Assembly: GCA_947259375.1 (NCBI GenBank)
Contig: CAMYLZ010000010.1
Coordinates: forward strand, 1-64,000
From: an uncultured Parvularculaceae bacterium
GTDB taxonomy: Bacteria > Pseudomonadota > Alphaproteobacteria > Caulobacterales > Parvularculaceae
Reading direction: 5' to 3'
Length of the DNA stretch: 64,000 nucleotides
A program made the translations under genes and the position numbers. Positions 47,565-59,135 of this stretch are shown here, piece after piece (position 1 is the stretch's first letter; the number at the start of each line of letters is the position of its first letter). The notes beneath the pieces were generated by a model, which searched no databases, was not told the origin of the DNA, and worked only from the letters and a program-made list of their open reading frames with translations.

Positions 47565-49316
47565 TTAAGCGAGGAACGACAGCACCAGCACGAGGGCCAG
47601 TAAAACCGCGGTCCACAGCGCCATGAAGCCGATCGGCCAGGAACGCGACATTTGCCCTTCCGGCCCGTGCACCGCGTAAATTCGCGCCATCAGAACTTGA
47701 ATCCGTCCTGAGAAAATCGCCCATAAGGCGTTCCATGTTGCACGCGACGCACCAGTCGCCCATCCGAGAAACGCCCGGCCCGGCACGCGATACAGCCAAT
47801 CTGAATCGAGATTGGTGGATTTCAGCTCCGGCGGGTAAAGCCCGGTTTTCTGCAACACCGCGAAAGCAAGGCCGGAGAACAACAGGATCTGCAATTGCGT
47901 AACGATATGGGGCGCGGTGTAGGCGATATAGGAAGAATGCGCATCCTCAATCTTCACCTCAAACGGCATCAGCGCATAAAGCGGGTCGCCCAACGGCCCG
48001 GTGAAAATCTGCGCCGAGCCGATGAAGATGCACAAAAACGCCGTGATCCCCATGGCGATCAGCATATGCAGCGGCGCTTCCTTCGGACGCTTGCCGCTGT
48101 CATGGGCGAAGAAGGCAAAAAACGGGATCTTGATGCCGGAATGGTGAAACACGCCAGCCGCCGCGAAGAGCAGCGTCATCCACACCCAGTAATAATGCTC
48201 CTTGGCCGCCGCGCCGATGATCAGCCCCTTGGAGATGAAGCCGGAAAATAGCGGGAACGCCGAGATCGACGCCGCGCCGATGATGCAGAAAATGGCCGTT
48301 AGCGGCATGGTCTTGTAAAGCCCGCCAAGTTCCGAGCCTTTGACCGTCCCGGTCCGGTAAAGCACCGCGCCCATGGCCATGAACAACAGGCCCTCGAACA
48401 GGATGTTGCAAAAGGCGTAGGCGGCCGCGCCGTTAAGGGCGAGCGGCGTGCCGATGCCGATGCCGACAATCATGAAGCCGACCTGGTTGTTAAGCGAATA
48501 AGTCAGCACCCGGCGCAAATCATTTTCGATCACCGCAAAGAAGATCGGGAAAGCGGTCATCGCCGCGCCGATATAGACCAGTGCTTCGGCCCCGGCGAAC
48601 CCCCGCGCCAGCGATGCGACAGCGAGCTTGGTGGTGAAGATCGACAGGACGATCGTGCCGGTCACCGTCGATTCCGGATAAGCGTCCTGCACCCAGTTAT
48701 GGAGCAGCGGAAACGCGCTCTTGATGCCGAAGGCGATAAAGATGAACAACACCGCCGGATCGCTCAGCGACATGCCGCCGTCGAGAAAATTCTCAAAGGC
48801 CAGCGAACCGCTCGCGCGGAAATAAAGAACGACGCCCATCAACAGCAAGACGCCCGATCCGACCTGCCAGGCGAGATAGCGCATGCCGGCGTAAAAGGCC
48901 CGCCGGTTGCGGCTCGCCCAGATCAGGAAGACGGAGGAGATCGCCGCGATTTCCCAGAAGATAAAAAGCGTGATGAGATCGCCAGCCAGCACCCCGCCAA
49001 GCGCCGCGCCCGGATAAACGAGGCTCGCGCTTTGCTGCACCGGGTCGCGCACATGCCAAGCGTAAACGACGTTCAGCGCAATCGCGATGAGGAAGATCGT
49101 CGAGAAAATCCGCGACAGCCCGTCAATCCGTGTCAGCGTCAGGCTTTGTCCGAACAGCTCGTAATTCCAGTATTCGCCGACACCGAGATTGATCAATTGC
49201 ACGGCCGCCAAAAGCGGCAAGGCCAGCATGAAAAGATTGCGCGCCCAGCCATTCGGGACCAGCGGCACAAATAGCCCGCCAAGGAGAATGATCAGCGCAG
49301 GAGAGAACTCGGCCAT
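47565..49316 (-). CDS. Mrp-type antiporter D-like subunit, third copy
   Basis: A 583-aa, ~14-helix proton-translocating subunit related to NuoL/M/N. ITLFIFWEIAAISSVFLIW (Glu in TM5-type helix), KSAFPLLHNWVQDAYPESTVTGTIVLS (Lys in TM7-type region) and ISAFPLFSGFISKGLII fit the family. A 100-residue C-terminal extension with an extra helix is present. It is the last gene of the operon and starts at the end of the 2-TM protein gene (1-base overlap). Confidence 0.93.
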   Translation of the reverse strand: MAEFSPALIILLGGLFVPLVPNGWARNLFMLALPLLAAVQLINLGVGEYWNYELFGQSLTLTRIDGLSRIFSTIFLIAIALNVVYAWHVRDPVQQSASLVYPGAALGGVLAGDLITLFIFWEIAAISSVFLIWASRNRRAFYAGMRYLAWQVGSGVLLLMGVVLYFRASGSLAFENFLDGGMSLSDPAVLFIFIAFGIKSAFPLLHNWVQDAYPESTVTGTIVLSIFTTKLAVASLARGFAGAEALVYIGAAMTAFPIFFAVIENDLRRVLTYSLNNQVGFMIVGIGIGTPLALNGAAAYAFCNILFEGLLFMAMGAVLYRTGTVKGSELGGLYKTMPLTAIFCIIGAASISAFPLFSGFISKGLIIGAAAKEHYYWVWMTLLFAAAGVFHHSGIKIPFFAFFAHDSGKRPKEAPLHMLIAMGITAFLCIFIGSAQIFTGPLGDPLYALMPFEVKIEDAHSSYIAYTAPHIVTQLQILLFSGLAFAVLQKTGLYPPELKSTNLDSDWLYRVPGRAFLGWATGASRATWNALWAIFSGRIQVLMARIYAVHGPEGQMSRSWPIGFMALWTAVLLALVLVLSFLA

Positions 49317-49705
49317 TATTGGTCCCCTCCCGCCTTTTTGGCTTTTTCCGCCTCGTAATGGGCGTGGCCTTCGAACGGCGTGTCGGCCGCATCGGCCATG
49401 CCGCTGGTGTCGCCGAAATTATCGCGTTCCTTCGCGGCGTCTTTTTTCTCGTAATAATTTTCAGGGCGCATCAGGATTTTGCGCAATTGGGCGGCGGCGA
49501 GCACCAGGAACACGCAACCGACAAAGCCATAGAGCCCATAGAAATTCGGCACATTTTCAATCGCGAAATGCGGGTGTTTTTCAATGAAGAAATCCGCGGC
49601 GGTAACCGCGGCGCACACGCCGATCAGCCCGTACCAGATGCGCTGGACATTTTTGGGATTATCCGCCCAGCCCGGTTTTTCATCGCGGTTGTGGTGGTCA
49701 GCCAT
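49316..49705 (-). CDS. Two-helix membrane protein in the Mrp operon
   Basis: 129 aa, MADHHNRDEKPGWADN…, with two membrane helices (IWYGLIGVCAAVTAADFF and FYGLYGFVGCVFLVLAAAQL) and a charged cytoplasmic tail. GGAGCGGATC lies ahead of ATG 49705. The short conserved motif EKHPHFAIENVPNFYGLYGF between helices looks specific. Position between two D-like subunits suggests an accessory subunit. No named family. Confidence 0.8.
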   Translation of the reverse strand: MADHHNRDEKPGWADNPKNVQRIWYGLIGVCAAVTAADFFIEKHPHFAIENVPNFYGLYGFVGCVFLVLAAAQLRKILMRPENYYEKKDAAKERDNFGDTSGMADAADTPFEGHAHYEAEKAKKAGGDQ

Positions 49706-49737
49706 GATCCGCTCCAACTAAATACTCTATGGAAACT

Positions 49738-49795
49738 GTCGCCGGGATGTTCGCAAACCGTCGCCCGGCGCTCGCTGCCCGGCATGACGCCGCCC
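49738..49795. repeat. Dispersed palindromic repeat inside the Mrp operon
   Basis: GTCGCCGGGATGTTCGCAAA followed by CCGTCGCCCGGCG…GCCCGGCATGAC: GCCGGG and CCCGGC halves in inverted order with a GC hairpin. This is typical of REP-like units in alphaproteobacteria. It fills the 120-base spacer between the second D subunit and the 2-TM protein genes. Confidence 0.6.
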
Positions 49796-49825
49796 CGCTT
49801 CTGCTTATCACCGTCGGCTCGACCA

Positions 49826-51370
49826 TCATCCCGCCCCCATTAACGGGGTGAGGAAGTCGTAAAGCGCGCCCATGAAGAAAAACAGGATCAGCGACCCGGC
49901 AGCGGTCACGCCGATCGGCAGCAGGCAAGCGAGCGGCGCCTCGGCGACGCCCGGCTTTCGCGGCTTGACCGGCCCCTCGACGCCCGCGTCAAAGCGCGGC
50001 CCGTCATACCAAGCGCCTTCGAAATCATGGGCCGCGCCGGGCTTTGCTTTCAAGAAGGCCTGTACCGGGATCGACAAGAGATAGACGATATTGAGGATCG
50101 ACGAGACCATCAGCGCCGCAATGATAATCAGCTCGCCCCGGTCGGCCGCGCCGAGCATCAGGAAGAATTTCGGCCATGAGCCGGCCATCGGCGGCAGGCC
50201 GATGATCGAAACGGCGCCGATAAAGAAGGCGCCGAAAGTAAACGGCATTACCCGGCCGAGGCCGCGCAGTTCCGACACTTGCGTCTTGTGATGGGCGACA
50301 TAGATCGCGCCGGCGCACATGAACAGCGTAATCTTGCCGAGCGCATGGGCGGCGATCTGCATCGCCCCGCCCATGACGCCCATTTGCGTCGCCAGCATTG
50401 CGCCGAGCGTCACATAGGAAAGCTGCGAGACCGTCGAATAGGCGAGCCGCGCTTTCAGATTGTCCTTATGCATCGCAATGGCGGAAGCGAGCAGGATCGA
50501 CCCGGCCGCGATCCACATGAAAGGCGTCGCCGCGCCGGTATCACGCAGGAAATCGACGCCAAAAATATAGACTGCGATTTTGAGGATCGAGAACACGCCC
50601 GCCTTGACCACCGCCACCGCATGCAGGAAGGCCGAAACCGGGGTCGGCGCGACCATGGCGTTAGGCAACCAGGGATGGACCGGCATCAGCGCCGCCTTGC
50701 CGACGCCAAAGGCGTAAAGGCCGAGCAGCAGGCCGGCGATCGGCCCGACCGCTTCCCGGTGATCCGCCATGATGCCGCCCAGCGCAAAATCCGTCGTGCC
50801 GGTGATGACGAAAGTCCAGACAATCGCCGGCAAGAGCAGGCCGATCGAGGTCGCCATCAGCACGCCGAGATAGACCCGGCCGCCATGGCGCGCATTCGCA
50901 TCGCCTTTATGGGTGACCAGCGGAAAGGTCGACAGCGTCAGCACTTCATAAAAGACAAAAAGCGTGAACAGGTTCGCAGCGAAGGCAACGCCCATGGCGG
51001 CGGAGATCGCCACCGCGAAGCTCATGTAAAAGCGCGTCTGGTGCTTTTCATTGCCGCCGCGCATATAGCCGATCGAATAGACCGAGTTCACCAGCCACAA
51101 ACCGCTGGCGATCAGCGCGAACAAAGCGCCGAGCGGCTCCACCGAAAAGGCGATGGGCAGGCCGTCGATCACTTCGACAAGCGTGAATTCAGGCCGCGCG
51201 CCGCCGCTAACCGCCGCGAAAACGGAAATGACCAGCGCCAGCAGCGCGCCGCCGGTGACGAGCGTCGCCGCTTCACGCAGGTTCGGCTGTTTGTCGAGCA
51301 GCCAGATGGCGACAAAGCCGGCGATCGGAACGCCGAGCGCAAGCGGGATGGCGAGTTCAGGCGCGATCAT
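49826..51370 (-). CDS. mnhD: Mrp-type antiporter D-like subunit, second copy
   Basis: A 514-aa, ~14-helix Proton_antipo_M protein. LFTLFVFYEVLTLSTFPLVTH with the Glu, GKAALMPVHPWLPNAMVAPTPVSAFLHAVAVVKAG with the Lys, and LPPMAGSWPKFFLMLGA near the C-terminus. Its start overlaps the preceding D gene by four bases (ATGA). Confidence 0.93.
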   Translation of the reverse strand: MIAPELAIPLALGVPIAGFVAIWLLDKQPNLREAATLVTGGALLALVISVFAAVSGGARPEFTLVEVIDGLPIAFSVEPLGALFALIASGLWLVNSVYSIGYMRGGNEKHQTRFYMSFAVAISAAMGVAFAANLFTLFVFYEVLTLSTFPLVTHKGDANARHGGRVYLGVLMATSIGLLLPAIVWTFVITGTTDFALGGIMADHREAVGPIAGLLLGLYAFGVGKAALMPVHPWLPNAMVAPTPVSAFLHAVAVVKAGVFSILKIAVYIFGVDFLRDTGAATPFMWIAAGSILLASAIAMHKDNLKARLAYSTVSQLSYVTLGAMLATQMGVMGGAMQIAAHALGKITLFMCAGAIYVAHHKTQVSELRGLGRVMPFTFGAFFIGAVSIIGLPPMAGSWPKFFLMLGAADRGELIIIAALMVSSILNIVYLLSIPVQAFLKAKPGAAHDFEGAWYDGPRFDAGVEGPVKPRKPGVAEAPLACLLPIGVTAAGSLILFFFMGALYDFLTPLMGAG

Positions 51371-52872
51371 GGCGCGCCTCCCGCCGTCAACATCAAGGCC
51401 TCAGCCGCGCGTTGGGCGATGCCGCCAGTCAAATCCGTGCGGATGCCGAAATAGATATTGGCGATGACGAGCACCCACATTGGGATTAGCATGGCGAGCG
51501 GCGCTTCCTTCGCGGGGAAGGCGTATTTACCTTCGCTTGGCGGCTCGCGCAGCAGCATCACTTCGGCGAGGCGGCCCACATAAAGCAGCGCGATCAGCGA
51601 GCTCGCAACGATGAGAAAACCGGAATATCCGTGACCGGACGAAAACGCCGCGTCCAGCAGATACCATTTCGACACGAAACCAACGGTAAGCGGCACGCCG
51701 ATCAGCGACAACCCGCTCAGAATGATCGCCCAAGTGGTCACCGGCATGCGTTTGCCAAGGCCGGCGAAGGCGTTGATCGAATGCGACCCGGCGCGCAGCA
51801 CGACGCAAGCCACAGCCATGAAAAGCGCGCCCTTCATCAATGCGTGATTAAAGACATGGACAAGGCTGGCCGTCAGCCCTTCAACCGTAGCGAAGGACAG
51901 GCCCAGCAGCATGTAACCGATCTGGCCCACCGACGAATAGGCCAGCAGGCGTTTGACGTCATCCTGGAACACCGCCGCCAGCGACGCGATGAACATGCCC
52001 GCAATGCCGAGCGGCAACAGCACATAGGTGAACGCCGCGCCGATAAACGCAAAATCGAAATTGAAGACCGAAAAGAAAAAGCGGATCAGCACATAGACCG
52101 CGACCTTGGTCGCCGTCGCCGCGAGAAACGCCGACACCGCCGAGGGCGCATAAGTATAGGCATTCGGCAGCCACAGATGCAGCGGGAACATCGCCAGCTT
52201 GAGACCGATGCCGACGACGATGAACGCAAAGCCCGCCTGCACCATACGGTTGTCCTGACCGATCAGCCGCTCATGTAGATCCGCCATGTTGAGCGTGCCG
52301 GTCGCCTGGTAAAGCAGGCCGATGCCGATGACGAAAAAGGTCGCGCCGATCGTTCCCATGACGAGATAGTTGAACGCCGCGGTGAGCGCGCGCCGGTCGC
52401 GCCGGGCGCCCATGGCGACGAGCGCATAGGTCGACAGCGACGAGATTTCGAGAAACACAAAGACGTTGAACGCATCGCCGGTGATGGTGACGCCAAGCAG
52501 CCCGGTCAAGCAGATCAGCATCGCGCCGTAGAACAGCGGCGTTTGCGCCGCGTCCACTTCGGCCCGCACGGAATGGTAGGAAAAAGCGAAGACCAGCGCC
52601 GCAACGCCGGAAACGAGAAACAGGACCAGCGCATTGGCGAGATCGACACGGTATTCAATGCCGAGCGGCGGCGCCCAGTCGCCGAGGTGATAGGAAATCA
52701 TGCCGGTCGATGCGACCGTCGCCAACAGCCAGGCGCAAGCCGCGAAGGTCACCCAGGCGACGACCGACGCCCACACCCAGGGCAGACGCGGCTTCGGCAA
52801 AAGCAGCGTCAGCGGCGCCGCGACCAGCGGAATGATAATCGGCAATACGGGAAGCTGGGCGATCAGGCTCAT
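51367..52872 (-). CDS. mnhD: Mrp-type antiporter D subunit, first copy
   Basis: A 501-aa D subunit. FNVFVFLEISSLSTYALVAMGARRDRRAL (Glu), GLKLAMFPLHLWLPNAYTYAPSAVSAFLAATATKVAVYVLIRF (Lys), and a canonical GVPLTVGFVSKWYLLDAAF. Follows the C gene with a four-base overlap, as in all Mrp operons. Closest of the three to true MrpD. Confidence 0.94.
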   Translation of the reverse strand: MSLIAQLPVLPIIIPLVAAPLTLLLPKPRLPWVWASVVAWVTFAACAWLLATVASTGMISYHLGDWAPPLGIEYRVDLANALVLFLVSGVAALVFAFSYHSVRAEVDAAQTPLFYGAMLICLTGLLGVTITGDAFNVFVFLEISSLSTYALVAMGARRDRRALTAAFNYLVMGTIGATFFVIGIGLLYQATGTLNMADLHERLIGQDNRMVQAGFAFIVVGIGLKLAMFPLHLWLPNAYTYAPSAVSAFLAATATKVAVYVLIRFFFSVFNFDFAFIGAAFTYVLLPLGIAGMFIASLAAVFQDDVKRLLAYSSVGQIGYMLLGLSFATVEGLTASLVHVFNHALMKGALFMAVACVVLRAGSHSINAFAGLGKRMPVTTWAIILSGLSLIGVPLTVGFVSKWYLLDAAFSSGHGYSGFLIVASSLIALLYVGRLAEVMLLREPPSEGKYAFPAKEAPLAMLIPMWVLVIANIYFGIRTDLTGGIAQRAAEALMLTAGGAP

Positions 52873-53687
52873 ATCGCCCTCGCCTCGGCGGCGTCGCCGA
52901 ATTCGGCCACGTTATCCATAGATTCCAATTCGTCTTCTTCGATAGTGCCGTAGGCTTCGCGAATGCGCACCGCGAGCGCGAGACCGACAGCGGTCGTCGC
53001 CACGCCGACGACAATGGCGGTGAGGATCAGCACATGCGGCAGCGGGTTTGAATAAATCACCTCGCCCAGCGCCGAATGGGCGCCGTCCATCGCATTCGCC
53101 GCGTCGCCGGCCTGGTGCAGCGCGCCCTCAACCTCGAAACCTTTTTCGGGAAAGGTCTTGCCCGCCGACTTCAGCGCTTCGTTGGAGATTTTCGCCGCTT
53201 CGGCATGCGGCAGCGCATGCAGGCCCTCGCCCGCTTCCGCGCCTTGCCCCGGGTCGACGCCTTTCAGCGCATCTTTCAGATCATTGGCGGGGAGGTTTTC
53301 AACCTTCGCATGCAGCGCATCGCCGCCCTGGGGCGCGTCCGTGCCGCCATGCAGGTCTCCCGAGGAGGCTGGCGCGCCTTCTGGCGCGTCGTGAAGATTC
53401 TCTTCACCATGCCCCTCTCTCTCGAGACTTTTTTCGCCGGCCTGGCCATTTCCATGGCTTTCGCCGGCGTGATCAAGTTCGCCGCCTATATAGATCGGCG
53501 CGGTGCCGCCGGCAATCTTTCCCATGGTGATGTAGAAAATAAATACCGAGGTCTGGAACAGGTTGAGCCCAACCACCTTTTTCACCAGATTGCCGCGCGC
53601 ATAAACAATATAAAGGCCCGTCATCATCAGCGTAATGACGATCCAGTAATTATAACGCTCAAGAACGAATTCGATCCAGTTTTCCAT
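52869..53687 (-). CDS. mnhC: Mrp antiporter C subunit with a large His-rich insertion
   Basis: A 272-aa NuoK-like subunit; ordinary MrpC is 110-130 aa. Residues 1-69 hold two membrane helices and the conserved GGTAPIYIGGE. Residues ~210-245 give the third (NPLPHVLILTAIVVGVATTAVGLALAV). Between them is a ~140-residue hydrophilic insertion with ten His, many Glu and Asp, and repeated GHGEENLHD / DLHGG / DALHA-like elements. By NuoK topology the loop faces the periplasm. It may bind metal or sense pH. It overlaps the D gene by four bases. Confidence 0.9.
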   Translation of the reverse strand: MENWIEFVLERYNYWIVITLMMTGLYIVYARGNLVKKVVGLNLFQTSVFIFYITMGKIAGGTAPIYIGGELDHAGESHGNGQAGEKSLEREGHGEENLHDAPEGAPASSGDLHGGTDAPQGGDALHAKVENLPANDLKDALKGVDPGQGAEAGEGLHALPHAEAAKISNEALKSAGKTFPEKGFEVEGALHQAGDAANAMDGAHSALGEVIYSNPLPHVLILTAIVVGVATTAVGLALAVRIREAYGTIEEDELESMDNVAEFGDAAEARAI

Positions 53688-53698
53688 ATCTCGCCCGC

Positions 53699-54139
53699 CT
53701 ACCAGTCTTCCTGATCGATATCAGGCTCGCGGCCAGTGAAATGATAGAAAATCGTCAGCATGGTCGAGGCGACGCACATGCCGACACCCCATTCAACAAG
53801 CAAAATGCCGTAATGCTGGCCTGCATGATGGGTCGATTGCGGATCGATCGCGTCATAACCGAGCAGGTTGGCGCCAAGCAGCATCGTCGCAACCCCGGTC
53901 AGCGCATAAAACAGGAGCCCGGCCACCATGGCGATGACCAGCGCCTTTTGCGGCAGGACTTTTTTGGTTTCCGCAAGGCCGAAACAAAAAGCGTGGAGGA
54001 TGAACGCCACCGCGAAAATCACGCCCGCCTGAAAGCCGCCGCCGGGCCCGTAATCGCCGTGAAACTGCACATAAAGCGCGAACAAAATGATCGGCGCGAA
54101 TAACAGCTTCGTCGTCACTTTCAAGATGAGATGATCCAT
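53699..54139 (-). CDS. mnhB: Mrp antiporter B subunit (MnhB domain)
   Basis: A 146-aa, four-helix MnhB protein: PIILFALYVQFHGDYGPGGGFQAGVIFAVAFILH is the family signature, with the GPGGGFQ loop, then ATMLLGANLLGYD and HHAGQHYGILLVEWGVGMCVASTMLTIFYHF. The start overlaps the DUF4040 gene by one base. Confidence 0.95.
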   Translation of the reverse strand: MDHLILKVTTKLLFAPIILFALYVQFHGDYGPGGGFQAGVIFAVAFILHAFCFGLAETKKVLPQKALVIAMVAGLLFYALTGVATMLLGANLLGYDAIDPQSTHHAGQHYGILLVEWGVGMCVASTMLTIFYHFTGREPDIDQEDW

Positions 54140-54744
54140 CAGGCGTTCTCGTCTTTTTCAGCATCGACGTCGGAAACCTCGCGCCCGCCGCGCACGGAGC
54201 CGGCGCCGAGCAGCAGCATCACTGCGACGCCCGCTGTAAAAATCACCATGACCTCGCCAAGCGTATCGAAGCCGCGATAACTCGCCAGCACGGCGGTGAC
54301 GATATTCGGCACCGCGATATCGTTCGGCGTCTGCTCGACATAATCCTGTCCGACCGCGCTATTGGCCGGCGCATTCGGATCGCCAAAGGCCGGCATGTCG
54401 ATGGTCGCATAAATCAGCGCCGCGCCGGCCGCCAGCACGACAAACAGCGCCGTCGGCGCGCGCCCCGGCGTTACCGGCTTTTCGCGGCGCGCCGTCAGCA
54501 ACATGCCGCCCAGCATCAACACGGTTGAAACGCCGGCCCCAACCGCCGCTTCGGTGAAGGCCACATCGACCGCGTCAAGCGAGACGAAGAACGCCGCGGA
54601 CAACAGTGAGTAAATGCCCGACAACATCACGACCGCGAACAGATGGCGCGAACGCAGCATGGCGATCGCCACCAGCACCAGCATGGTGAGCAGCGCCAGG
54701 TCCAGATAGACCGCCGGGGTCAGCTCCACTTCGAAAGTGTTCAT
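54139..54744 (-). CDS. Fused MbhD (DUF4040)-MbhE subunit
   Basis: A 201-aa protein. The first half, LTMLVLVAIAMLRSRHLFAVVMLSGIYSLLSAAFFVSLDAVDVAFTEAAVGAGVSTVLML, is the DUF4040/MbhD domain equal to the MrpA C-terminal part. The second half has a single-helix linker and the MbhE-like YRGFDTLGEVMVIFTAGVAVMLLLG. In classical Mrp both are in the MrpA C-terminus. Here they stand alone. Ends overlap both neighbours. Confidence 0.92.
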   Translation of the reverse strand: MNTFEVELTPAVYLDLALLTMLVLVAIAMLRSRHLFAVVMLSGIYSLLSAAFFVSLDAVDVAFTEAAVGAGVSTVLMLGGMLLTARREKPVTPGRAPTALFVVLAAGAALIYATIDMPAFGDPNAPANSAVGQDYVEQTPNDIAVPNIVTAVLASYRGFDTLGEVMVIFTAGVAVMLLLGAGSVRGGREVSDVDAEKDENA

Positions 54745-55082
54745 TTGCCGTCCCCCTCATAGCGAAGGTCGGGCCCTTGCATGGGTTTGAAGCCGGTCAT
54801 CCACGCTGCATGGGCGATCGCATGGGTCGCCACCGGCGAGGTCAGGAACAGGAAAGCGCCAATGAAGGCGAGCTTCGCCACATGCAGCCAGGTCGGCGAT
54901 TGCAGCATCATGCCGAGAATGATGAGCTCGGCGCCGGCCGTATCGGTGACGCCGGCCGCATGCAGCCGCGTGAAAAAGTCGGGAAAGCGCACCAGGCCGA
55001 TCGCGCCGGAAACCACCGCTAAGCCGCCGGCCAGCATCAGCGCCCAGGATACAATATCGCGAATGAGATAGAGATCGATCAC
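54741..55082 (-). CDS. mnhG: Mrp antiporter G subunit
   Basis: 113 aa, three helices: LMLAGGLAVVSGAIGLVRFPDFFTRLHAAGVTDTAGAELIILGMML carries the family signature R-F-P-D-F-F-T-R-L-H-A-A. Overlaps F and the DUF4040 gene by four bases each. Confidence 0.95.
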   Translation of the reverse strand: MIDLYLIRDIVSWALMLAGGLAVVSGAIGLVRFPDFFTRLHAAGVTDTAGAELIILGMMLQSPTWLHVAKLAFIGAFLFLTSPVATHAIAHAAWMTGFKPMQGPDLRYEGDGK

Positions 55083-55402
55083 GCCGCCGGCTCCTTGTCC
55101 GCATCAGACGGATCCGCACGCGCTTCCGCCGCAGGCTCGGCCGGCGCGGCCTTGGGCCGCCGGTACGAAAAGAACCGCAGGATCGCCAGCGTCGCGGTGA
55201 AATTGATCAACGCATAAAGCAGCGCAATGTCGAGAAAATCAGGCCGCCCGGTGATGAAGCCCATCAGGCCGATCAGCAATACTGTCTTGGTGCCGAAGGA
55301 ATTGCCCGCGAGCACCCGATCATAAAGCGACGGGCCCGCGAAAGCGCGCACCAGCGCCAGCACCATGGCCGCGATGACAGCAGCGATTGCAGCGGCGAAC
55401 AT
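55079..55402 (-). CDS. mnhF: Mrp antiporter F subunit
   Basis: 107 aa, three helices, with VRAFAGPSLYDRVLAGNSFGTKTVLLI as the MrpF/PhaF signature and LDIALLYALINFTATLAILRF. A Pro/Ala/Glu-rich 25-residue cytoplasmic tail is longer than usual. Lies three bases after E. Confidence 0.95.
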   Translation of the reverse strand: MFAAAIAAVIAAMVLALVRAFAGPSLYDRVLAGNSFGTKTVLLIGLMGFITGRPDFLDIALLYALINFTATLAILRFFSYRRPKAAPAEPAAEARADPSDADKEPAA

Positions 55403-55405
55403 CGG

Positions 55406-55885
55406 CTAGCCCCTCCCCTCGATCTTCGCCACCCGCACGCCCATATCGGTGATGGCGGCGACATCGGCGAGCTCTTCGGTGAGCGCATGAACGAGGATCG
55501 CATCCTCGCGCAGATCGACCGAGACCGTGCCCGGCGTCAGCGTGATGGAATTGGCGAAGGTCGCCTTGCCGACCGTCGATTTCGGCGGGTTCGGGACGAG
55601 GAACAGTTTCGGCGAAAGCTTCGGCTCCACCGCCAGCGCATGACGGATGACGATCATATTGGCTTTGCCGATTTCGCCGCCGAGCCACATCCAATAGCCG
55701 AGGACGCCGGGGAACAGTCGCGCCGGCACGCTGTCATGATCGAGGATCCCGGCGCGGCGCGCCAAATAAGCAGCGAACAGGACCGAACCGGCGCCGAAAG
55801 CCAGCAGCAGCGGCTTGTCGAAATAGCCCGACAGCAACAGCCACAAACCGGCTAACGCCAGAACGAGGATAAGAAAACGCCCCAT
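55406..55885 (-). CDS. mnhE: Mrp antiporter E subunit
   Basis: A 159-aa MrpE: LILVLALAGLWLLLSGYFDKPLLLAFG, YWMWLGGEIGKANMIVIRHAL, and the C-terminal NSITLTPGTVSVDLREDAILVHAL signature. The ATG at 55885 has AGAGGG seven bases ahead; the upstream extension is unsupported. First gene of the antiporter operon. Confidence 0.94.
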   Translation of the reverse strand: MGRFLILVLALAGLWLLLSGYFDKPLLLAFGAGSVLFAAYLARRAGILDHDSVPARLFPGVLGYWMWLGGEIGKANMIVIRHALAVEPKLSPKLFLVPNPPKSTVGKATFANSITLTPGTVSVDLREDAILVHALTEELADVAAITDMGVRVAKIEGRG

Positions 55886-56223
55886 CAGCCCTCTTCGAGA
55901 ACTCCAGACCAACACCGAACCTGCAAGCAAGGCAGGCTCAACACGAATGATTTGCCGTCGCGCGACATTACGCTTACCGGCGGCGGGCGCGCATGGAAAC
56001 GCGCCAAACCGCCGCGACGGCGGCGAGATGCGCCGGGAATTTCGCAGAATTCTCACGGAAATCAACGGGCAAAGCCCACAAATCGACCCGCCCATGCGGG
56101 AATTGGCCAATTGCAGGATGTTTCGCGGGCGTTATTCAAGCCCGAACCGTCAAGCGCCACATGGCGCAAACCAAGCCCGGAGGCGGGTTCGAGACGATCG
56201 ACGCGCATCCGCGCCGGTCTCGC
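55886..56223. other. Gap of 338 bases upstream of the Mrp operon
   Basis: No supported gene. It must hold the Mrp promoter and the 3' end of the SufR-like regulator transcript. Short GC-rich stems are present but no clear terminator. Confidence 0.45.
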
Positions 56224-56907
56224 TCATCGCATTTTTTCCTCCGCCTGCGGCGCAAATCGAAACCGGCAAGAGCCGCCGCCGCGCACCATGCATTCGGCAT
56301 GTTCAGGGCGCGCGCCGGCTGTTTCCTCCAGCAAGGCGAGGTCAAAGGCGCAAATATCCGGGTTGGCGACGGCGAGATGGTGATAGACGCAGTTAAAGGC
56401 TTCGATTTCCGGCCCGGTATCGGTTTCATGGGCGCGCGCCACATAGCCGAGATCGCTCATGGTCTGGGCGATCGCCGCGAGCGGCAGCGTTCCGGCTGCC
56501 CCGGCCTGGCTTTTCAGTTGCGCGCCGACGCTACGGCCGAGCGCTTCGAGTTCGTCTTTCAGCTCCGGTTCGCTCAGGCGCCGGCTCAGGACGCCGAGCA
56601 GCAAGGTCGAGAACCAGTCATAGCGTTTGGGAAACTGCTCCAGCCCCGCCTCGCTCAACGCAAAGACAAGGCCCGGCCGGCCCCTGGTGCGCGCCAGCCG
56701 GCGGCGCTCCACCAGCCCTTCGCGCTCAAGGCTGGTGAGGTGCTGATGCACCGCAGAACGCGACACGCCCATGGCCCCGGCGAGCTGGTCCGCCGTCAGC
56801 CCGTCGCGCGCCTCAAGCAGCGCCTGCAACAGAGCCTCGCGACCGCCGGGAAGCGCCGCCTTCCGTTTCGGCTTGTCTTTTTTCAGGAAATTCAGCAGCG
56901 TAACCAC
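56224..56907 (-). CDS. SufR-like Fe-S winged-helix regulator
   Basis: A 227-aa regulator. Winged helix at ~20-85 (REALLQALLEARDGLTADQLAGAMGVSRSAVHQHLTSLEREGLV, then RTRGRPGLVFALSE). Four C-terminal cysteines near 173, 186, 206 and 214 (FNCVYHHLAVANPDICAF … AECMVRGGGSCRFRF). The CX12C spacing and FNC-Y/HH-A pattern match [4Fe-4S] SufR proteins. It senses iron or redox state. Divergent from two membrane-protein genes. The window's other copy at 24378 has a different cysteine layout. Confidence 0.9.
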   Translation of the reverse strand: MVTLLNFLKKDKPKRKAALPGGREALLQALLEARDGLTADQLAGAMGVSRSAVHQHLTSLEREGLVERRRLARTRGRPGLVFALSEAGLEQFPKRYDWFSTLLLGVLSRRLSEPELKDELEALGRSVGAQLKSQAGAAGTLPLAAIAQTMSDLGYVARAHETDTGPEIEAFNCVYHHLAVANPDICAFDLALLEETAGARPEHAECMVRGGGSCRFRFAPQAEEKMR

Positions 56908-56923
56908 TTTGTACAGTTCTTTC

Positions 56924-56953
56924 TTGACAAACTTTCTCTATCTCAACCATAAA
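56924..56953 (+). promoter_or_regulatory. Candidate promoter between SufR-like and membrane-protein genes
   Basis: TTGACA at 56924-56929 and CATAAA at 56948-56953, 18 bases apart, upstream of the plus-strand gene at 57000. TTTGT…ACAAA flanks the -35 box and could be an operator for the regulator next door. Confidence 0.4.
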
Positions 56954-56999
56954 CGCCGGCGCTGCCTGTATCAACAATTCCAGCCATTCGGGGGCTTTC

Positions 57000-57344
57000 A
57001 TGCTATTACCGCTCGCGCTTTTCGCCGTCGCCGCACTTATTGGTCTTATAATGGCCGTCCGGATCCTCACCGGCTCGACCGCGCCAATCATCTTGTCGCT
57101 GCTTCATGCGGCGCTCGCCGCCACCGGCATCGTCACGCTTTATCTCGCTGTCGCCGGCGCGCCGGTCTCCGGACCTGGCTGGCTGTCGCTCGGCCTGTTC
57201 GTGATCGCAGCCCTGCTCGGCTTCTTTCTCGGCTCCTTCCGCTTTCGCGGCAAGCTGCCGCCTGTCGCCGTAATCGCCATTCATGCGGTGATAGCGCTCG
57301 GCGCATTCGGCGTGCTCGGCGCGCTCTTTCTCGGCTTGGTCTAA
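57000..57344 (+). CDS. Small membrane protein
   Basis: 114 aa with four hydrophobic helices (LPLALFAVAALIGLIMAVRI, ILSLLHAALAATGIVTLYLAV, LGLFVIAALLGFFLGSFRF, IAIHAVIALGAFGVLGALF) and short loops. H-A-A / I-H-A-V pairs recur in helices two and four, suggesting internal duplication and heme- or metal-facing His. No named family. It precedes the DUF2231 gene by 12 bases. Confidence 0.8.
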   Translation: MLLPLALFAVAALIGLIMAVRILTGSTAPIILSLLHAALAATGIVTLYLAVAGAPVSGPGWLSLGLFVIAALLGFFLGSFRFRGKLPPVAVIAIHAVIALGAFGVLGALFLGLV

Positions 57345-57356
57345 CGGGCCGCACCG

Positions 57357-57800
57357 ATGCGCTTCCTCGGACATCCGCTGCATTCGGCGATCGTGCATTT
57401 TCCGATCGCCGGCTGGGTCTTCGCCGCCGGCGCGGACGCGGCTTGGCTGGTGACGGGAGACGGCGCGTTTCTGATCGCGGCCTTATGGCTGCAAGGATCA
57501 GGTCTCGCCGCCGCCGGCCTCGCCGCGATCGCCGGGGCGGCGGACCTTGGCGGACTGAAACGCAAGCCCGAAGCGGCGACGGCGGCGATGACGCATATCG
57601 CCTTCATAAGCCTCGCCCTGACGGCCGCCGGCGCCAGCCTGGCCGGCCGGCTGAATACGCCGCCCACAGAGGATTTGCCGATCTGGATGTTCGCCGCCAG
57701 CTTCGCCGCCGCCGCGCTGGTGCTCATCGGCGGCTATTTCGGCGGCACGCTGGTCTATCGCCACGGCTTCGGCGCCGCAAAGACCCCGCCGCCCGAATAA
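57357..57800 (+). CDS. DUF2231 membrane protein
   Basis: A 147-aa, four-helix protein with the DUF2231 signature MRFLGHPLHSAIVHFPIAGW (HPLHxxxVHFPIA), AGAADLGG and RHGFGAAK. The His residues suggest a heme site. Together with the preceding gene it could be a small membrane electron-transfer unit controlled by the divergent Fe-S regulator. Confidence 0.92.
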   Translation: MRFLGHPLHSAIVHFPIAGWVFAAGADAAWLVTGDGAFLIAALWLQGSGLAAAGLAAIAGAADLGGLKRKPEAATAAMTHIAFISLALTAAGASLAGRLNTPPTEDLPIWMFAASFAAAALVLIGGYFGGTLVYRHGFGAAKTPPPE

Positions 57801-57804
57801 GCGC

Positions 57805-58422
57805 CTAACCCTTGCGCCGGCGGGCGAGCAGCCGCTCAAGCTCGTGACCGATCGCTTCGTCGGTGACCGGCGCCACGTCATTGGCGTCGAGATAGCATTC
57901 CAGCGCTTCCAGAATGATCGCCTGGCAAGACATTTCAAGATCCCGCGCAGCGTAACGCAGCCTGACCAGCACGCTTGCCGGCATGCGCAGTTTGACGATC
58001 GCATTGCGCCCGTGCGGCGCGGCCCCCGGGGCGCTGGCTGTCTGCCCGCTTGTTGCGGGGCCCTGGCGCAAAGCCGCACCCTGGTTCGCCGGCATGCCTT
58101 GCCACTTATCCGCAGAGGAATGAACAAGACGCACCGGCGCGTGCGAAGGATCGCCATGACCGTGTCGCGATGATGCGCCGCCCGTTGCAGGGCGGCGCAT
58201 CGCCGGGCGTTGGCGGCGCAAAGAACTGATCGATTGTTCGCTGATATTCGCCGGGGCGCCGGGACTGTTGGCGGGCCGCATCGGCCGCATATCGATATCG
58301 ACGCCTTCATGAGCTACTGCGTCAACCGCCGGCAGGGCCTCGCCCTTGCGCGCCAGAAGGCTGCCGGAGAGCGACGCATATCCGCCGCCGCCTGCCGATG
58401 CATTGCCTGCGTGATGGCTCAT
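57805..58422 (-). CDS. Ribbon-helix-helix protein paired with ParA-like ATPase
   Basis: 205 aa. The first ~140 residues are a disordered Gly/Ala/Pro-rich region. The last ~65 form an RHH-like domain: GRNAIVKLRMPASVLVRLRYAARDLEMSCQAIILEALECYLDAND. The ATG overlaps the TGA of the ParA gene. This is a common two-gene module in alphaproteobacteria in which the RHH protein is the DNA or cargo partner of the ATPase. Confidence 0.82.
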   Translation of the reverse strand: MSHHAGNASAGGGGYASLSGSLLARKGEALPAVDAVAHEGVDIDMRPMRPANSPGAPANISEQSISSLRRQRPAMRRPATGGASSRHGHGDPSHAPVRLVHSSADKWQGMPANQGAALRQGPATSGQTASAPGAAPHGRNAIVKLRMPASVLVRLRYAARDLEMSCQAIILEALECYLDANDVAPVTDEAIGHELERLLARRRKG

Positions 58423-59135
58423 TATTGCGCCGCCCTGCGCCCGAAGACGCGGCTTTGGGGGTTGACCATGGCGCCGTCATCCGCCGCGCGATATCCGCCA
58501 TCCGCCCGTTGCAGGCGTTCGTCGAGATATTTCCAGAGCGCGGAAATCTCCTGCGACGACTGGCAGAAAGGATCGATCTCCATCACCGTGCGCCCGTCGA
58601 TCATCGACGCGGCGAAATCGACCCGGTGGTGGATGGTCACCGGCGCCACCGTGCCGTGCTGCGACAGGGCGACAGCCGCCTCGGAGGTGATCCGGGCGCG
58701 TTGCGTCGCGCCATTGACGACAAAGATCAGCGGCTTGCCGCGTGCTTCGGCGATATCGACCGTCGGCCCGACGGCGCGCAAATCATGCGGGCTCGGCCGC
58801 GTCGGGGCGACGACGATATCGGCAAAGCTCACCACTTCGGAGATCGCCCGCGTCACCGCCGGGGGCGTGTCGATCACCACCAGCTTGAACCCTTCGTCGC
58901 GGGCGCTGTCGAGATCGTAGAAAAGGTTTGAGAAAACCGACTGGATAAAGGCGGGCGCGGGATCCTTGCGCGCATTCCACCATTTCGCCAGCGACCCTTG
59001 CGGATCGGTGTCGATCAACGCCACCGGTCCGGCGCCCTGGCGCTCCGCTTCAACCGCAATATGGCCCGACAAGGTCGTCTTGCCCGATCCGCCTTTTTGC
59101 GAAGCAAATACGATGACCCGCATCGATGACAGCAT
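58422..59135 (-). CDS. ParA/MipZ-like ATPase
   Basis: A 237-aa Walker ATPase: VIVFASQKGGSGKTTLSGHIA with deviant Walker A, DTDPQGSLAKWWNARKDPAP, Walker B-type LVVIDTPPAV, and VAPTRPSPHDLRAV. Orphan, not beside parB. ATG 59135 is supported by GGAGG; an ATG at 59123 also exists. It probably positions a cargo (protein cluster or plasmid-like locus) with its RHH partner. Confidence 0.9.
   Translation of the reverse strand: MLSSMRVIVFASQKGGSGKTTLSGHIAVEAERQGAGPVALIDTDPQGSLAKWWNARKDPAPAFIQSVFSNLFYDLDSARDEGFKLVVIDTPPAVTRAISEVVSFADIVVAPTRPSPHDLRAVGPTVDIAEARGKPLIFVVNGATQRARITSEAAVALSQHGTVAPVTIHHRVDFAASMIDGRTVMEIDPFCQSSQEISALWKYLDERLQRADGGYRAADDGAMVNPQSRVFGRRAAQ

Follow-up and report, generated by a model that had tools for sequence, protein, structure and literature searches.

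An MrpC subunit encoded in the window (the whole 64,000-nucleotide stretch of DNA analysed, from an uncultured Parvularculaceae bacterium) carries a long, acidic and His-rich loop between helices 2 and 3 that belongs to one bacterial lineage and bears signs of purifying selection. Tentatively, with a probability of about 0.4, we read this loop as a disordered cation-binding fringe which takes up protons, perhaps also metals, and so adjusts the exchange of ions on the outer side of the membrane. The gene product, of 272 aa by ORF translation, is, judging by its core and its operon, the MrpC of a multi-subunit Mrp-type cation/proton antiporter, and is a variant by its loop. The gene is divided as follows:

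52869-53687, minus strand: mrpC, whole gene (Oxidored_q2 in two pieces; NCBIfam MrpC models)
53484-53687, minus strand: N-terminal core, residues 1-68, helices 1 and 2 (high conservation across relatives; AlphaFold helices 2-30 and 34-60)
53049-53483, minus strand: insertion spanning residues 69-213, acidic and rich in His, with little predicted structure (composition; pLDDT below 50 for residues 60-212)
52872-53048, minus strand: C-terminal core, residues 214-272, helix 3 from NPLPHVLILTAIVVG plus tail (alignment with relatives and with 7qru; AlphaFold helices 216-245 and 249-271)

The NuoK-like core proposed in an earlier note on this DNA is intact; Pfam family Oxidored_q2 (PF00420) matches the protein in two pieces around the insertion (73.2 bits; cut-off 26.1). 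The best NCBIfam MrpC models likewise split the core in two, NF005624 scoring above its cut-off (112.6 bits against 95) and NF005621 just below (121.5 against 126). With MrpC/MnhC subunits (NuoK/ND4L-like; PF00420, NF005621/NF005624) the protein shares the three-helix core, the place between MrpB and an MrpD-like subunit and the conserved NPLPHVLILTAIVVG opening helix 3, but it differs in having a loop of about 145 instead of about 9 residues, and Thr and Phe for H37 and H40. The short helix 2-3 loop usual in MrpC is absent here (145 residues, against 8-11 in 29 rows of the class), and we regard it as a usual trait, not one that defines the family by itself. The H37/H40 pair of helix 2 is conserved in Mrp, according to the excerpts of PMC7419157 used here. 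T46 and F49 occupy these places in the alignment with 7qru, of which this piece is weak; the pair is also missing in the loop-less relatives of the class, and across these alignments its absence is a subfamily trait. With Thr and Phe for H37/H40 (residues 45-49), the cation site of this MrpC subfamily may differ.

A PF00420 search of the bacterium's own genome found no further MrpC, leaving this gene as the sole one identified. A full match on contig C32 was not counted as a second MrpC but taken as NuoK, its neighbours resembling NuoI, NuoJ and NuoL by eye, and the other match is weak and lies inside the first MrpD-like gene. A sequencing or frame artefact was also rejected, as all 27 other genomes of the genus match the protein and the parsed ones carry the loop; two of these 27 (G001 and G010) give partial matches, at contig ends.

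On the minus strand, the operon runs MrpE, F, G, an MbhD/MbhE-type subunit, MrpB, MrpC and then three MrpD-like subunits, with a small protein before the third:

55406-56110, minus strand: mrpE, start codon uncertain, residues 1-71 being unaligned with relatives (Pfam; locus L041)
55079-55402, minus strand: mrpF (Pfam; L041)
54741-55082, minus strand: mrpG (Pfam; L041)
54139-54744, minus strand: MbhD/MbhE-type subunit, counterpart of the MrpA C-terminal domain, without large insertion (Pfam; L041)
53699-54139, minus strand: mrpB, without insertion (Pfam; comparison with L041)
51367-52872, minus strand: MrpD-like antiporter subunit 1 (Pfam, NCBIfam; L041)
49826-51370, minus strand: MrpD-like antiporter subunit 2 (Pfam, NCBIfam; L041)
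49316-49717, minus strand: small unannotated conserved protein, 133 aa (same operon place in L041)
47565-49316, minus strand: MrpD-like antiporter subunit 3 (NF009310 above cut-off; L041)

Homologues of MrpB, D, E, F and G are thus present, and their order is identical in L041, a metagenome contig labelled Gemmatimonadetes that holds the same operon and whose MrpC core pieces are 66% and 75% identical to those described here; its label would reflect a mislabelled bin or a transfer. Against L041, the best alignments of the other subunits contain 0-27 gap letters, whereas that of MrpC is broken at the loop, and the ends left unaligned are residues 1-71 of MrpE and the last 44 residues of the 133-aa protein. 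The matching subunits present in the partial loci L060, L065 and L067 align with at most 18 gap letters. Compared with these four loop-less relatives, no other subunit of the operon showed a comparable insertion.

The separate MbhD/E-type protein replaces the MrpA C-terminal domain and accompanies three MrpD-like subunits (47565-52872, minus strand); complex I likewise has three antiporter-like subunits. A helix-turn-helix protein (IclR/MarR-like; 56224-56907, minus strand) adjoins the operon and is a candidate regulator. The 133-aa protein matched no Pfam or NCBIfam family, has matches in 21 of 96 genomes of the class (its own included) and is encoded downstream of MrpC, at a distance of 3.0-3.2 kb, in the window and in the four genomes compared (G068, G111, G123 and G149); it seems to be an as yet unannotated subunit of Mrp complexes of this type. 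Among solved structures, the best sequence matches to our MrpC were MbhG of the Pyrococcus furiosus membrane-bound hydrogenase (6cfw) and a related chain of 6u8y, which we take to be a sulfur reductase. These systems also have a split MbhD/MbhE-type subunit in the operon, but their chains comprise 117 and 114 residues, without the long loop, and differ from ours in a further respect, no redox subunit having been recognised among the genes examined at 47565-59135.

The 145 residues between TAPIYIG and NPLPHVL include 10 His, 27 Asp or Glu and 9 Lys or Arg. The earlier note was right about the size, His count and place of the insertion, which it had given as about 140 residues with ten His splitting helices 2 and 3; it allowed normal MrpC a few residues there, the figure being about 9 in this subfamily. 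Its description of the loop as His/Glu-rich is fair, although Ala (25) and Gly (24) are the commonest loop residues. The His share of 6.9% in the loop compares with 2.08% over 335 mechanical ORFs taken from 370 kb of this genome, and of the genome's 48 hydrophilic, acidic segments of 100 aa the loop is the richest in His (5; median 1). When His alone is counted over 100 residues, the loop reaches 8 at most and stays outside the top 12 of the 335 ORFs (9-16), several of which look like wrong frames. A query with the loop alone matched only itself in the genome, giving no second copy.

For comparison across relatives, 151 loci were gathered, of which 146 could be parsed and 138 were kept as distinct rows. 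The rows of the order are a selection (76 regions picked from matches, plus loci that came with the searches), and the outgroup rows of the class derive from the best-scoring 30 loci of the class search, 29 of them parsed and the 30th short by eye. Loci L013 and L034 represent a single contig, in which an unknown letter follows the loop; both rows were included in the composition, alignment and motif counts and dropped from the dN/dS, His-spacing, tree and retention analyses. By eye, four of the five unparsed loci (L040, which is cut off, L104, with masked letters after the loop, L118 and L148) have a long loop with His, and L083 has a short one without His. Minimum, median and maximum loop lengths were 121, 141 and 151 residues in the own genus (27 rows; 5-14 His), 90, 130 and 235 in other Parvularculaceae (31 rows; 3-20 His), 35, 52 and 128 in family f2 (27 rows; 1-17 His), 29, 54 and 138 in family f5 (23 rows; 0-17 His), and 8, 9 and 11, always without His, in the class outgroups (29 rows); the single Gemmatimonadetes-labelled row has 8 residues and no His. 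Together, the 108 selected rows from three families of one order (Parvularculaceae, f2 and f5) have loops of 29-235 aa, all 108 of them net negative and 107 with at least one His, and include no short-loop row. Fewer than three His occur in 7 of the 23 f5 rows (none in L052) and in 2 of the 27 f2 rows, and Cys occurs twice in total over all long loops.

The protein has matches in 48 of 60 genomes (its own included), among them all 28 of its genus, and in 186 of 299 genomes across the order at E 0.001, a figure that includes weak matches to another MrpC kind; in this order search, G519, of the Parvularculaceae, gave no match. A second look at 12 genomes in the order whose matches were weak or missing gave 8 with unbroken NF005621 matches of 36-48 bits, which we read as another kind of MrpC. 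In the class, NF005621 matched 107 of 289 genomes, and the match was broken in two at one place only in G000 and G036, with two further rows being partial matches; in the phylum, 115 of 349 genomes matched and five were broken, all within the same order. In both searches, a remoter MrpC kind with a long insertion could score below threshold in both halves. A universal insertion, which the earlier note had said would count against its reading, is rejected on these searches, in which broken matches are confined to one order; the comparison of MrpC lengths across the class that it had proposed gave 8-11 residues in the 29 outgroup rows. Loop length has to switch twice on the core tree, where two f125 rows with short loops adjoin f2 and f5, and a single long-loop clade is not rejected (p 0.463), so the loop may have had one origin followed by loss, or two origins.

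In a phmmer comparison, residues 19-65 and 210-255 of the query align with residues 11-56 and 62-107 of the MrpC in 7qru, the first piece being weak alone (i-Evalue 4.2) and the second having an i-Evalue of 0.0008; the insertion therefore falls between residues 56 and 62. Membrane protein topology tends to follow the positive-inside rule, as would be the case here, where helices 1 and 2 are joined by a basic turn, ARGNLVKK, and the loop is acidic. An AlphaFold model from nine sequences, weak overall (mean pLDDT 47.3, pTM 0.25), recovers the three helices of the core, adds a further one in the C-terminal tail and leaves residues 60-212 below a pLDDT of 50; it places four short helices of low confidence in the loop, three of them at conserved motifs. 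The 7qru entry is the Mrp structure of B. pseudofirmus, and the excerpts of PMC9568556 used here place Arg27 of MrpC near the cytosolic side and MrpC 66-82 among the regions surrounding a putative periplasmic Na+ exit tunnel; those of PMC7419157 put MrpC helix 3 on the path to the periplasm. The cation route through Mrp is disputed, and the analysis in PMC9568556, as excerpted, did not detect the exit proposed in PMC7419157. It follows from homology that the loop would be periplasmic, as the earlier note had it, beside the proposed Na+ exit tunnel and just before MrpC 66-82; a cytoplasmic position, which that note had named as evidence against itself, disagrees with homology to the solved Mrp complexes.

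Pooled loop His amounts to 7.2% in Parvularculaceae, 11.0% in f2 and 9.4% in f5, against means of 3.3%, 4.4% and 3.7% after dinucleotide shuffling (30 shuffles, custom segment-swap routine). Expressed as counts (561 vs 258.1, 177 vs 70.4 and 137 vs 54.4), the excess over shuffled DNA is 2.2- to 2.5-fold in each of the three families. This excess is not unique to the reading frame, because one antisense frame of the loop DNA is richer in His than the real frame (685 vs 561, 235 vs 177 and 190 vs 137), an effect that we would ascribe to AT-ending codons followed by G; His is far scarcer than in the real frame in the two remaining antisense frames and in the other sense frames. Median dN/dS was 0.135 for the loop and 0.032 for the core (32 usable of 56 close pairs, which are not independent). 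In 45 pairs sharing no sequence, and with the last three loop residues left out, His was the best-retained loop residue, unchanged in 251 of 421 columns (0.60), ahead of Leu (0.53), Lys (0.50), Gly (0.49), Ala (0.48), Asp (0.44) and Glu (0.35); including those three residues, Tyr reaches 0.62 because of a fixed Tyr at the loop end.

These data bear on whether the loop is a weakly constrained low-complexity expansion, one in which slippage in GC-rich DNA would have extended a periplasmic turn that tolerates it, with nothing but length and solubility being important. We consider this unlikely: the range of lengths (29-235 aa), the repeats of period 4 and 7 (e.g., HGDG and HGAADAA), a loop dN/dS about four times that of the core and the His-rich antisense frame are all in its favour, but dN/dS is well below 1, His is both 2.2-2.5 times the shuffled-DNA mean in three families and best retained, motifs are conserved, and there is no short-loop row among the 108. 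Changes in length are what a purely neutral spacer would show, but the excess of His and its retention are not. His excess, His retention and loop dN/dS argue for selection and against junk, and the marks of selection on the amount of His are compatible with a cation-binding role of some kind. The earlier note suggested a cation or pH sensor gating the antiporter; such a sensor may be what the loop is, though a simple buffer, a tether or a spacer would suit the data as well. In f2, the loops of L049, L050, L146 and L147 carry heptad repeats of HGAADAA running towards helix 3, which could lengthen that helix with a stripe of His and Asp.

Distances of 4-7 residues between successive His are commoner than shuffled loops would give, and in each of the three families distances of 2 and 3 are strongly under-represented; HxH occurs 3 times against 36.6 expected in Parvularculaceae, and 0 times against 16.5 and 12.9 in f2 and f5, and HxxH is likewise nearly missing. 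Repeat expansion has therefore probably shaped the loop. HxH is common in metal-binding stretches, being typical though not strictly defining, and its scarcity bears on the idea that the loop is a transition-metal sensor or gate, binding Zn, Cu, Ni or Co specifically, much as the His-loops of zinc transporters take up zinc, and altering antiporter activity when occupied. HGDGH stretches (11, in 10 of 58 Parvularculaceae rows), the enriched i,i+4 His spacing (73 vs 30.8 expected in Parvularculaceae) and the retention of His above other loop residues would suit such a sensor. There is also an analogy in human ZnT7, whose long flexible His-loop binds Zn, with His-to-Ser mutants having mapped the Zn sites, according to excerpts of PMC10409766. 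Both loops are long, flexible and His-rich and lie beside a transport path; they differ in that the ZnT7 loop, in the same excerpts, is cytosolic and serves Zn2+ transport, whereas that of MrpC is periplasmic by homology, acidic, nearly without HxH and part of a monovalent-cation antiporter. The MrpC loop perhaps works, by analogy, like the His-loops of zinc transporters, although MrpC does not belong to that family. The loop may bind metals specifically, but this reading is weakened by the scarcity of HxH, by the occurrence of only two Cys in all long loops, by the loops with 0-2 His and by the monovalent nature of the ion moved by Mrp, and a dedicated metal sensor seems to us improbable.

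Within the genus, the loop contains three conserved elements:

53295-53315, minus strand: motif LHxK[IV]xN, residues 125-131 (K[IVL].N in 27 of 27 genus rows; helix 124-128 predicted, low confidence)
53265-53285, minus strand: motif NDLKxAL, residues 135-141 (alignment; helix 135-142 predicted, low confidence)
53172-53222, minus strand: block LHxxP..KI[AS]NxxL, residues 156-172 (genus conservation; helix 163-173 predicted, low confidence)

These could instead make the loop a docking tether, in which LHxK[IV]xN, NDLKxAL and LHxxP..KIAN bind a periplasmic partner or another subunit and the rest is a flexible linker. The motifs are aligned in the genus and far above chance (K[IVL].N, 61 occurrences vs 0.9 expected; LH..P, 40 vs 1.0, in 26 of the 27 rows), LH..P extends to 19 of the 31 other Parvularculaceae rows, and three of the four short loop helices, predicted with low confidence, coincide with them. 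K[IVL].N, however, is found in 2 of those 31 rows, both motifs are absent from all 27 f2 and all 23 f5 rows, and we saw no motif common to the loops of the three families. As the acidic His make-up is common to all three, the motifs cannot be the shared function; docking as the explanation of the loop is accordingly given little credence, although the motifs suggest a further docking function in Parvularculaceae.

What the three families share is a low-complexity loop at the periplasmic mouth that is acidic and almost always contains His, and the ion-binding fringe that we prefer would be consistent with selection acting on composition and not on a precise fold. Under this reading, the helix 2-3 loop of MrpC, grown from about 9 to about 145 residues, would form a largely disordered fringe at the periplasmic mouth. 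Its imidazole and carboxylate side chains would bind and release protons and cations, perhaps divalent metals, and would thereby buffer or tune ion exchange at the outer mouth; the Parvularculaceae-only motifs would be a later, sequence-specific addition, perhaps a docking element. Several points count against the fringe. The pKa of His is about 6.5, and loop His would be mostly neutral at the pH of sea water. The antisense His excess, the repeat-type spacing of His and the His-poor loops of f5 and f2 weigh in the same direction. Moreover, an acidic loop conflicts with the view of Steiner and Sazanov, as given in the excerpts of PMC7419157, that the periplasmic face over the small subunits is positively charged and suited to ion release.

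A search of the open-licence literature found no paper on such an MrpC loop, although this does not prove that none exists. Within the complex I superfamily, MrpC and NuoK are compact components of small size. The natural series of MrpC proteins, with loops of 8-235 residues at the proposed exit, offers ready-made constructs for asking if the cation leaves there and if pH or metals on the outside act on that place. It is conceivable, if somewhat doubtful, that an ion-binding fringe, disordered, rich in His and acidic residues and kept by selection, has arisen within a single bacterial order at the mouth through which sodium leaves Mrp; the pH or metal level at the outer face would then directly tune a machine of the complex I superfamily.
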